Below are positions 48,519 through 51,618 of a stretch of 64,000 nucleotides of DNA, one piece after another; within the stretch, counting starts at the first letter, position 1; every line of letters begins with the position of its first letter. The stretch is from Ereboglobus sp. Its GTDB lineage: Bacteria; Verrucomicrobiota; Verrucomicrobiia; Opitutales; Opitutaceae. Position numbers and translations under genes: made by a program. The stretch is from the NCBI GenBank assembly GCA_029974595.1, contig JARKRC010000007.1, positions 1-64,000 on the forward strand, read 5' to 3'. The notes under the pieces are model-generated. The model saw only the letters and a list, made by a program, of their open reading frames with translations, was not told the DNA's origin and did no database searches.

Positions 48519-49574
48519 TTATTGTTTCGTTTTGTCGGCGGCGGCTCTCAACTGTCCGCACGCCGCGTCAATGTCGCGCCCGCGCGGCCTGCGGAAATGC
48601 GCCACCGCGCCGCTCTTCCGCAGCACGTTCAGGAATGCGTCCGCGGTCTCGTCGTCGGTTCCCTCATAGGCCGCGCCGCTCAGGCTGATGCCGGTGGGAT
48701 TGTAGCGCAGGAGATTCACGTGCATGCGGCGGTTTTTCAGCAGCGCCGCGAGTTGATGCGCCTGCTCCGGCGAATCGTTCACGCCTTTTAACAGGCAATA
48801 CTGGATCGTCACGATCCGCCCCGATTTCGCCTGATAACGATCCGCCGCCGCCAGGATGTCATCGACACGAAACCGCTTCCCCGCCGGAAGCAGCCGCGCG
48901 CGGGTGGCATCGTCGGGCGCGTGAAGCGACACCGCCAGGTGAATGTTCAAATCCGCCTCCGTCATCGCGTCGATGCCCGGCACGATGCCGACCGTCGAGA
49001 CCGTGACCTGCCGCCAGCCGAGATTGCCCATGCCGTTCGAGGCGATGCGCCGCACCGCTTCCAACACCGCGTCGAGATTCAACATCGGCTCGCCCATGCC
49101 CATGAAAACAAGCGTCTGCAGCCTCCTTCCCGCCAGCGCCGCCTCGCGCCGGATCGCAAGAAACTGCTCGACCATCTCGCCCGCGCTCAGGTTGCGCTCG
49201 AATCCGGTCTTCGTCGTCGCGCAAAAATCGCAGCCCATCGCGCACCCGACCTGCGACGATACGCAACCCGCCGCGCTGTCCGGCGAGAAATTGGCCATCA
49301 TCACCGCCTCAACCGTCCGCCCGTCGGCGAGTTTTAGCAGCACTTTCACCGTGCCGTCCGCCGCCGCCTGCCGCGCCGCGATTGCCACATCCGGCGCAAA
49401 ACCGCGCAACTCTTCCGTAAGCGCCATCGGCAGCTTCAAACCGCCAAAATCCATCGCGCCGTTTCCATCATAAAACGCCCGCAGCACGCGGGCCGCGTGC
49501 ACAGGCTTGTAGCCGCGCCCTGAAAGATGGCGCGCAAACTCCTCCTGCGAGAAACCTGACAATGCGGTTGTCAT
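48519..49574 (-). CDS. rlmN: 23S rRNA (adenine2503-C2)-methyltransferase
   Basis: Radical-SAM enzyme that methylates A2503 of 23S rRNA and often A37 of some tRNAs, 351 residues. The radical-SAM cluster motif is CAMGCDFCATTKTGF. Downstream are FMGMGEPMLNLDAVLEA, VSTVGIVPGIDAMTE, LAVSLHAPDD and QYCLLKGVNDSPEQA, and a second essential Cys lies near the C-terminus (DIDAACGQL). The ATG at 49574 is preferred to unconserved upstream frame. It converges on the GH43-like gene with only 14 bases between stops. Confidence 0.95.
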   Translation of the reverse strand: MTTALSGFSQEEFARHLSGRGYKPVHAARVLRAFYDGNGAMDFGGLKLPMALTEELRGFAPDVAIAARQAAADGTVKVLLKLADGRTVEAVMMANFSPDSAAGCVSSQVGCAMGCDFCATTKTGFERNLSAGEMVEQFLAIRREAALAGRRLQTLVFMGMGEPMLNLDAVLEAVRRIASNGMGNLGWRQVTVSTVGIVPGIDAMTEADLNIHLAVSLHAPDDATRARLLPAGKRFRVDDILAAADRYQAKSGRIVTIQYCLLKGVNDSPEQAHQLAALLKNRRMHVNLLRYNPTGISLSGAAYEGTDDETADAFLNVLRKSGAVAHFRRPRGRDIDAACGQLRAAADKTKQ

Positions 49575-49949
49575 GGACGTAACGGCGGGCCGCAAACTCA
49601 CGCATCGCCTCACGCAAACGCAAGCTGTGATTGCGCCAGCCGCGAGCGCCCGGGTTTGATGCGTCGCGCGCATTTCTTAAAAATGCGACATCCTGTCACA
49701 CCGAGCCTGTCGCACTGTGTGCTATCGTCACGGGTTTCTGGCTGCCTCGCTTGAACGCCGAAGGTTTTCCCAATAGAATCAGCACTGGGCCTGCCAAACC
49801 GCCCGTGGCATAAAGATTGCATCCAAAAAACGCTAAAAAACAAAAACTCATCGCCAATGCGCCTTTTCTGTTCGCAACCAACTTAACATTTTCAAACACT
49901 CCCAAAACCTTCGTGTCGATAAAATCGACAAGCATGGTATATTAACAAC
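49575..49949. other. Divergent intergenic region upstream of mcsA
   Basis: 375 bases between the rlmN and mcsA starts. Short frames here have no coding support. The right end carries a promoter-like arrangement for mcsA, listed separately. Confidence 0.6.
49914..49943 (+). promoter_or_regulatory. Putative extended -10 promoter and palindromic operator of mcsA
   Basis: An extended -10 element TGGTATATT ends at 49943, only six bases before the mcsA ATG (49950), which would give a leaderless or nearly leaderless transcript. A perfect 7-bp inverted repeat, TGTCGAT-AAA-ATCGACA (49914-49930), overlaps where a -35 would sit and is well placed for a repressor. It does not resemble a CtsR or CIRCE box. 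Judged by eye only. Confidence 0.5.
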
Positions 49950-50480
49950 ATGGCCAATCAGCTCAAATGTGTCGTCTGCGGAAGCCCCGCAACTGTGCAT
50001 TTTACTCAAATTCTTAACAATAAAGTGCATAAGCTGGATCTCTGCGAAACTTGCGCGCAGGAGAAGGGCATCAGCACGCCCGGAAGTTTCGACCTTCCGC
50101 TCGATCTCCTTCACAAAAAAGCCTCCGGTGACAAAACTGCGGCCTCCGAAATCGAAACCGCCGCCGGCCTTCGTTGCGAAAAATGCGGGTTCACCCAGGC
50201 CGATTTCAAAAAAACCGGACGCCTCGGCTGTCCGCACTGCTACGAAACCTTCAAACACCTGCTCGACCCCATGCTCGACGGCATGCACAAGGGCACGACC
50301 CACACGGGCAAAGTCCCGCGCCACGCCGCCACCCGCAAAGAATATCACGACCGCCTCTCACAACTCGAACTCACACTCGCCAGCGCCATCAAGGACGAAC
50401 GTTACGAAGACGCTGCACGCCACCGCGATGAAATCGCCCAAATCAAACAAACCTACGGAAAACAGGATGCCACGTGCTAA
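49950..50480 (+). CDS. mcsA: McsA-like zinc-finger, UVR-motif protein
   Basis: Activator/adaptor of the McsB protein-arginine kinase, 176 residues. Four CXXC pairs are visible at residues 7-10 (CVVC), 32-35 (CETC), 76-79 (CEKC) and 95-98 (CPHC), forming zinc-binding modules. A C-terminal UVR motif covers about residues 134-170 (LELTLASAIKDERYEDAARH). This is the Firmicutes McsA architecture. The gene overlaps mcsB by 14 bases and begins an mcsA-mcsB-clpC unit. Confidence 0.93.
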   Translation: MANQLKCVVCGSPATVHFTQILNNKVHKLDLCETCAQEKGISTPGSFDLPLDLLHKKASGDKTAASEIETAAGLRCEKCGFTQADFKKTGRLGCPHCYETFKHLLDPMLDGMHKGTTHTGKVPRHAATRKEYHDRLSQLELTLASAIKDERYEDAARHRDEIAQIKQTYGKQDATC

Positions 50481-51618
50481 GACCAGAAAGGCCGTCGCAA
50501 GCACCACCCCCCTGACCTTTGACACGCTGATCGCATCCTCCTCCGAACTGACGGACACCGCCGCCAGCAAATGCGCCATCGTCATGACGACGCGCATCCG
50601 CCTCGCGCGCAACCTTGCCGGGCATCGCTTCCCCGGACGCGCCAGCGGCGAACAGCGCGCCGAAATCCTCGACATTTGCCGCCGTACCATCGGCGCCACC
50701 GCGCTCATGCAGCCCGCCTGCGACCTTTCCATTTCCGATCTCAGCGACCTCCAGAAACAAATCCTCGTCGAACGCCATCTCATATCGCGCGAACTCTCCG
50801 CATCGCCCAACGGCTCCTCCGTCATGATCAGCAATGACCAGACCTGCGCCGTCATGATAAACGAGGAGGACCACCTGCGCATCCAGTTCCTCCGCGCCGG
50901 CTTCCAGCTCAAAAAAGCCTGGGCCGCCGTCGACGCCTTCGACACCGCCATCGAGGACACGCTCGAATACGCCTTCTCCCCCGCCCTCGGCTATCTCACC
51001 GCCTGCCCGACAAACGTCGGCACCGGCATGCGCGCCTCCGCCATGATGCACCTGCCCGCGCTCGTCATCAGCGGCCACATGGAAAAAGTCGTCCGCGCCG
51101 TCAACCAGCTCGGCATCGTCGTCCGCGGCCAGTTTGGCGAAGGCTCCGAGGCCTCCGGCTCCATTTTTCAAATCTCCAACCAGACCACGCTCGGCGAATC
51201 CGAGGGGCAAATCATCAAGCGCCTCTCCTCCGTGCTCAGCGCCATCGTCGAGCACGAACTCAACGCCCGCGCCCTTCTCATCGAAAAAGACGCCGGCAAA
51301 CTCTGCGACAAAATCGGACGCGCCTACGGCATCCTCCAAAATGCCCACCTCCTCTCCTCGGGCGAGGCGATGAACCTCCTCTCGCTCGTGCGCCTCGGCA
51401 TCGACCTCGGCGCGTTTGCCGACACCGGGCGCGCCCTCGTTGACCGCCTCTTCATCGAAACCCAGCCCGGCCACATCCAGTATGGCGCGGACGCCGCCGA
51501 GCTCACGCCCGCCGCCCGCGACCAGCTCCGCGCCGCGCACATCCGCAGGCAATTCGCCACCTTCGCCGCGCCCGATTTCGGCGCCATCGCCAACCGCGGC
51601 GCGCCACAGCAAAACTGA
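50467..51618 (+). CDS. mcsB: Protein-arginine kinase McsB
   Basis: Phosphagen-kinase-type enzyme that phosphorylates arginines of proteins for ClpC-dependent degradation, 383 residues. The ATG at 50467 is used because the reading frame upstream is shared with mcsA and not conserved. Motifs are TTRIRLARNLAGHRFPG, CPTNVGTGMRASAMMHL with the catalytic Cys region, and NQTTLGESEGQIIKR. The allosteric pArg-sensing motif RDXXRA is present as RDQLRA near residue 352, supporting a true protein-arginine kinase. Translation is coupled to mcsA by overlap. Confidence 0.93.
   Translation: MPRAKTRKAVASTTPLTFDTLIASSSELTDTAASKCAIVMTTRIRLARNLAGHRFPGRASGEQRAEILDICRRTIGATALMQPACDLSISDLSDLQKQILVERHLISRELSASPNGSSVMISNDQTCAVMINEEDHLRIQFLRAGFQLKKAWAAVDAFDTAIEDTLEYAFSPALGYLTACPTNVGTGMRASAMMHLPALVISGHMEKVVRAVNQLGIVVRGQFGEGSEASGSIFQISNQTTLGESEGQIIKRLSSVLSAIVEHELNARALLIEKDAGKLCDKIGRAYGILQNAHLLSSGEAMNLLSLVRLGIDLGAFADTGRALVDRLFIETQPGHIQYGADAAELTPAARDQLRAAHIRRQFATFAAPDFGAIANRGAPQQN

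Follow-up and report, generated by a model that had tools for sequence, protein, structure and literature searches.

A predicted tandem sigma54 and leaderless sigma70-type promoter before mcsA-mcsB-clpC in Ereboglobus and other Opitutaceae

Introduction

In the Firmicutes, the operon order is ctsR-mcsA-mcsB-clpC, and the operon is controlled by CtsR. The mcsA gene of Ereboglobus sp. (Opitutaceae, Verrucomicrobiota) is preceded by a palindrome and by a candidate promoter that almost abuts the start codon. This raises the question of which promoter elements drive the operon and whether the palindrome marks a regulator that stands in for CtsR. The window analyzed here is the whole 64,000-nucleotide stretch at positions 1 to 64,000 of contig JARKRC010000007.1 (assembly GCA_029974595.1). 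A preliminary description of this DNA proposed that transcription starts at or next to the ATG of mcsA, which would make a leaderless mRNA, and that the palindrome could be the operator of an unknown stress repressor acting in place of CtsR.

Results

The mcsA operon and the upstream survey

The features of the locus are listed in Table 1. The product of mcsA matches the McsA model with an E-value of 6e-37 and 127 of 210 bits, which is below the cut-off. The Clp ATPase is not over the cut-off of any NCBIfam model. For the divergent rlmN, a start at 49574 was chosen; the open frame extends as far as an ATG at 49673, and the intergenic stretch is up to 376 bp long. The upstream neighbor of mcsA is rlmN in the window and, by eye, an aminotransferase-like gene in several other genera.

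An mcsA match is present in 237 of 250 family genomes. The upstream counts rest on 138 family sequences, for which 252 to 440 nt before mcsA were read in 138 Opitutaceae genomes (four of the genus and 134 others). Two more family rows (L225 and L226, with sigma54 boxes scoring 9 and 11) lie outside the 138. Some Opitutaceae contain a second, divergent mcsA-like gene (G010, G014, G021, and others with two or three matches).

Table 1. Coordinates of genes and predicted elements around the mcsA start codon in the window.
Feature	Position	Strand	Basis or remark
rlmN, divergent	48519..49574	-	TIGR00048 over cut-off
CTGCCA, corresponding to the family's TTGCCA block ahead of the -24 box	49791..49796	+	Spacing N9; mostly N13 in the family
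Predicted sigma54-type -24/-12 box TGGCATAAAGATTGCA	49806..49821	+	GG 49807-49808, GC 49819-49820; family pattern match
Perfect palindrome TGTCGAT-AAA-ATCGACA	49914..49930	.	Most of the -35 in the left arm; right arm in the spacer
Predicted -35 element TCGATA, 4/6 to TTGACA	49916..49921	+	Consensus scan; TCGA at the exact offset in 23/138 family members
Predicted extended -10 TGGTATATT	49935..49943	+	Consensus scan; TGnTAnnnT at the same offset in 26/138
Six-base gap AACAAC, -10 to ATG	49944..49949	+	Would place the transcription start at or beside the ATG
mcsA, 176 aa	49950..50480	+	Homologues align at the start codon
mcsB, 383 aa, protein arginine kinase	50467..51618	+	PF00217 E 1.3e-64; NF002194 over cut-off
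clpC-type Clp ATPase, 846 aa	51668..54208	+	Named from UVR linker and synteny

The predicted proximal promoter

The consensus scan finds two sigma70-like sites, against 0.3 expected. The proximal site has its -35 at 49916, a spacer of 16, and a -10 preceded by TG (TCGATA / 16 / TGG-TATATT). Its extended -10, TGGTATATT, ends six bases before the ATG, exactly as first described. The other site (49751-49779; TTGAAC, 17, TAGAAT) lies upstream of the sigma54 box described below.

The spacing of the proximal site recurs in the family. TGnTAnnnT ends exactly 6 nt before the ATG in 26 of the 138 Opitutaceae sequences, which belong to six genera, and this strict -10 is absent from the other 112. TCGA is found exactly 30 nt before the ATG in 23 family sequences, the genus included, and 19 of the 138 combine TCGA at the -35 position with TGnTAnnnT 6 nt before the ATG. 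When offsets of 0 to 59 are compared, a gap of 6 is the only one that at least three sequences in a class reach for TGnTAnnnT. The -10 occurs in 22 of 53 sequences with a distal sigma54 box, in none of the 64 with a box close to the ATG, and in four of the 21 with no box. TCGA at 30 nt has a similar distribution, with 22, zero, and one sequence in these classes. The strict pattern that joins -35, -10, and ATG has eight matches in 12 genomes, seven of which are mcsA, against one in the control; five of the 12 genomes do not contain it. Genus g66 has neither TCGA at the -35 position nor a sigma54 box, though the -10 and a TCGAC block are kept. These positions, their conservation, and the exact spacing are read directly from the DNA.

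The fixed 6-nt geometry points to a start at the A of the ATG, since a leadered promoter could tolerate insertions. A Shine-Dalgarno-like core precedes mcsA in five of the 138 family sequences, a scarcity that is weak evidence for leaderless use, as clpC in the window also has no such core. The leaderless start in the preliminary description thus gains comparative support, from the extended -10 at 6 nt in six genera and from the few Shine-Dalgarno-like cores, and stays a prediction. The proximal core is probably a sigma70-type promoter whose position suits leaderless transcription, and the comparative support for this is good.

Within three genomes of the genus, an extended -10 lies six bases before an ATG 12 times; three of these matches are mcsA, and the reversed control gives three. 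Leaderless use does not emerge as a habit of the genus because extended -10s at this distance are otherwise rare there. Besides mcsA, the leaderless candidates in the genus amount to one long frame. It encodes a protein of 298 aa whose start is signal-like, and TGrTATATT lies six bases before its ATG in two species (L280 and L287).

Two further ideas about the proximal site were rejected. A search for other genes with the same promoter, with at most one mismatch and no ATG required, gave 30 matches in 12 genomes; four are exact, all at mcsA, and the remaining 26 stand against 23 from the reversed control. TGTCGA could also be the -35 of an ECF sigma factor. An ECF reading was dropped because the spacing fits sigma70 and TCGATA has four of the six bases of TTGACA.

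The palindrome and candidate regulators

The palindrome at 49914-49930 is TGTCGATAAAATCGACA. Its arms are perfect and it overlaps the -35 position, as had been reported, with TCGATA mostly in the left arm. TGTCGATNNNATCGACA has a single exact match in the whole window. All four genomes of the genus, including G002, which is 65% complete, contain a single exact copy, which in each case spans positions 36 to 20 nt upstream of the mcsA ATG. None of the 134 Opitutaceae mcsA upstream regions outside the genus contains the full palindrome; the best match there has three mismatches. Conservation in relatives, which the preliminary description had made a test of the palindrome, therefore holds in the four species of the genus but not in the 134 family sequences beyond it.

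As a bare motif, the palindrome is not unusual. Of 1000 dinucleotide-shuffled versions of the 376-bp intergenic region, 2.9% contain a perfect palindrome with 7-bp arms and a 3-bp loop, and 25% contain one with a loop of 0 to 10 bp. The window contains 12 palindromes of the 7-3-7 form. At up to three mismatches, the motif is commoner in the window (12 matches) than in shuffles (2.85). Without conservation, the palindrome is hardly above chance. It is lifted above chance because its arms are conserved within the genus, not because a bare palindrome is rare. In the last 60 nt before the ATG, the four species agree at all 14 arm positions, compared with 21 of the 46 remaining positions (Fisher p = 1.3e-4); L003 and L004 are identical over these 60 nt, so the four species give three distinct sequences. 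The other 25 of the 46 vary, with changes in the loop and the flanks.

The two arms differ in their distribution. The left arm, TGTCGAT, occurs at the same distance and with no right arm in seven of the 134 sequences outside the genus (L011, L019, L027, L140, L176, L179, and L185). In L012, it is one base further from the ATG, also with no right arm. Genus g66, which has the two best McsA scores outside the genus, keeps CTCGAC-GAACGTG and the -10 and has no left arm at the -35, so part of the right half of the palindrome may predate the genus. Since the -35/-10 geometry recurs beyond the genus and the full palindrome does not, the left arm is best described as the putative -35 region of a promoter that predates the genus, with the right arm as the genus-specific part. 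The palindrome is, on these alignments, a genus-level elaboration of the predicted proximal promoter's -35 and spacer.

One explanation for such an elaboration is that the palindrome serves as operator for a dimeric repressor of this operon, a substitute for CtsR that would cover the -35 and spacer at rest and release them under stress. The perfect dyad lies over the -35 and spacer, and its 14 arm bases are invariant in the genus where the loop and flanks vary. CtsR and HrcA were also not found in the genomes searched. CtsR (PF05848) is detected in none of 57 genomes, with a weak control that is positive in one of 14 (Lactococcus). The control missed Bacillus subtilis, which has ctsR, so the result is less firm than 0 of 57 suggests, and genes may be missed elsewhere. 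The earlier phrase "in place of CtsR" agrees with the count, but a search with so weak a control may overlook ctsR. HrcA, a widespread heat-shock repressor, is detected (PF01628) in none of ten genomes (G000-G003, G006, G009, G036, G063, G068, and G120), with a control positive in seven of 14. The CtsR heptad motif is RGTCAAA; no CtsR-like tandem heptads lie between 49574 and 49950, and the window has eight loose matches. The CIRCE inverted repeat has no match in the window at up to three mismatches.

Other evidence counts against a repressor operator. The exact site occurs once per genome, at mcsA alone, and the nine one-mismatch sites in the four genus genomes all lie inside long open frames. 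A palindrome regulon was dropped on these grounds; they leave no regulon and no autoregulated repressor gene in sight. The full palindrome does not extend to the 134 sequences outside the genus. No regulator gene recurs beside mcsA, by eye, in the window and ten other neighborhoods, and the check for a conserved regulator gene, suggested in the preliminary description, thus found none in these 11 neighborhoods. With no regulator neighbor and no other promoter site, a dedicated repressor on this palindrome has neither a candidate nor a second site. The proposal of an unknown stress repressor is not established by these results, and we regard it as possible but rather unlikely.

The right arm may instead be incidental, with a -35 and a spacer that happen to complete a dyad in one genus. 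The frequency of 7-bp-arm palindromes with loops of 0 to 10 bp in shuffles (25%) is in line with this, as are the near matches to the motif that are common in the window and the TCGAC before GAACGTG in g66, where the left arm is missing from the -35. The right arm alone is, however, invariant at seven of seven positions against 21 of 46 (p = 0.008), though among three distinct sequences only. An incidental origin is a tentative option, and we would not expect it to prove correct.

The predicted distal promoter

A second promoter, which the preliminary description missed, is predicted further upstream in the form of the sigma54-type box TGGCATAAAGATTGCA. The start predicted from this box is near 49832, with a leader of about 118 nt. 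A start site well upstream had been named as what would refute the earlier reading, and the box at 49806-49821 is a predicted promoter in such a position. The sequence has TGGCAY...TGC with GG-N10-GC, and the genome encodes sigma54 and activators. TGGCAYNNNNNYTGCA has a single exact match in the window, at 49806-49821, and five matches with one mismatch, which is no more than chance. The window scores 10 on the textbook 12-position sigma54 consensus and the three sister species score 9; all four score 11/11 on the family-derived pattern.

The box is widespread in the family. It scores at least 10/11 in 111 of the 138 upstream regions, compared with 1.05 in shuffles, and 9 or more in 116, compared with 7.45; the scoring pattern was drawn up after some sequences had been seen, and it was also applied to the shuffles. 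The sequences have two layouts, with the -12 GC at most 31 nt from the ATG in 64 and the box further away in 53. The scan covers 200 nt, and the box of L002, at -251, was added by hand to these class counts. No box scoring 9 is found in 21 of the 138. Two sequences with no box in the stretch read (L030 and L052) come from genomes that contain a sigma54 gene (G034 and G031, respectively).

Outside the family, the box scores at least 10/11 in five of 14 sequences from other Opitutales families (14 of 20 such genomes were read) and in three of three further Opitutales members. It does not reach 9 in any of 15 loci outside the order, from a listing of 30 loci for 113 matching genomes, where start codons are less certain and some genes may be inside operons. 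Of 57 genomes, 55 encode sigma54 (PF04552 in G000, E 1.3e-57). The activator domain PF00158 has ten matches in the Ereboglobus genome itself, four of them strong (E below 1e-40).

In much of the family, TTGCCA lies 13 bp before the -24 box (for example L012, L010, and L022), which forms a TGCCA/TGGCA dyad. It is exact at N13 in 64 of the 116 family sequences with a box. The composite of TTGCCA, N13, and the sigma54 box occurs without mismatch only at mcsA (five of 12 genomes searched). As a search for other genes with this composite, the 12 genomes gave 25 matches, seven at mcsA and 18 elsewhere; the 18, with two mismatches each, stand against 12 matches in the control and were rejected.

The TGGCAT...TGCA block could be the site of another regulator, within a TTGCCA-N13-TGGCAT dyad, and not a sigma54 promoter. 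TTGCCA does not belong to the sigma54 promoter motif, and both its frequency at N13 (64/116) and the restriction of the mismatch-free composite to mcsA fit this idea. Against it, the GG-N10-GC box persists in sequences without TTGCCA at N13, such as the window; the box recurs in other Opitutales families, and nearly all genomes encode sigma54 (55/57). A published PSSM survey (PMC12316311) and a Chlamydia knockdown study (PMC10597470) also agree with sigma54. We therefore consider the site of another regulator improbable.

It is also quite unlikely that the palindrome acts as an RNA hairpin near the start codon that shapes translation or stability. In favor of this, a 7-bp stem with a 3-nt loop is predicted inside the predicted sigma54 leader, with constant arms and a varying loop. 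Against it, the fold of the leader as a whole is not more stable than those of shuffled sequences (z -1.04; 29 of the 200 shuffles do equally well), there are no compensatory changes and no Rfam match, and the left arm is kept alone in some other genera, which suits DNA recognition better. The reading as an RNA element was dropped with the Rfam result and the unremarkable fold.

Discussion

We think it fairly likely, from the sequence comparisons, that a tandem pair of promoters drives mcsA-mcsB-clpC, one of the sigma54 type and one of the sigma70 type placed for leaderless transcription, with the right arm of the palindrome as an addition of the genus. The distal promoter would be read by RNA polymerase with sigma54 and would require an ATP-driven activator, and its transcript would carry the leader of about 118 nt. 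The proximal promoter, TCGATA and TGGTATATT, would be read by a housekeeping sigma70-type factor. Its transcripts would begin with the A of the ATG, or one base to either side, and form a leaderless mRNA. The left palindrome arm would serve as the -35 region. The right arm, kept in the genus, would most simply be a binding site for some dimeric protein that tunes the proximal promoter. We infer the acting sigma factors, the start sites, leaderless translation, and any palindrome-bound protein from the arrangement of these elements.

A bolder version is that promoter choice toggles the Opitutaceae operon between two messages, a sigma54 mRNA with a leader and a sigma70 mRNA without one. Stress could then favor leaderless translation, and in Ereboglobus a dimeric protein bound to the palindrome would decide which promoter fires. 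This is speculative, and we give it little credence.

Like the CtsR operon of the Firmicutes, the window has mcsA-mcsB-clpC in one run with promoter-proximal control. Unlike that operon, the run has no ctsR, and none was found in the 57 genomes with the weak control. There is also no CtsR-like heptad pair near the promoter, and a palindrome replaces the direct repeat. The predicted tandem promoter suggests how bacteria other than Firmicutes may drive McsA-McsB-ClpC quality control without CtsR or HrcA.

We take COG3880 to be McsA. In a 2025 survey of the Opitutia sigma54 regulon, COG3880, "proteins with CXXC pairs," is among the sigma54-enriched, poorly characterised families (PMC12316311). 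On that assignment, a sigma54 link to the mcsA family in Opitutia was already predicted in print, and the box described here may explain the enrichment. The main text of the survey does not name mcsA, clpC, or leaderless transcripts (PMC12316311).

Chlamydia trachomatis, another PVC bacterium, offers a parallel. There, sigma54 knockdown lowers mcsA 2.27-fold (PMC10597470), and the stress genes hrcA and omcA have tandem sigma66-sigma54 promoters (PMC8762339). Both features resemble the arrangement predicted here. Heat shock lowers sigma54 in Chlamydia (PMC8762339), and a later C. trachomatis sigma54 study does not name mcsA in its main text (PMC12282069). In contrast to the Opitutaceae prediction, no leaderless start is described in the accessible parts of the two Chlamydia studies (PMC10597470, PMC8762339). 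Chlamydia also has HrcA, whereas none was found in ten Opitutaceae genomes.

Leaderless mRNAs are a general class in which the -10 lies about 6 nt before the ATG and no Shine-Dalgarno-like sequence is present. A survey of translation starts describes some Verrucomicrobia, including Akkermansia, as Shine-Dalgarno-scarce (PMC10783764). In the open-licence literature, the matches listed include no report of leaderless transcripts in Verrucomicrobia, and none of their titles concerns a leaderless or a tandem promoter of mcsA. The fixed 6-nt spacing in six genera may provide a comparative signature for a leaderless promoter in the Verrucomicrobiota. The mcsA locus resembles general leaderless mRNAs in this spacing and in having no Shine-Dalgarno-like sequence, and differs from them in that a second promoter is predicted for this stress operon besides the leaderless one.
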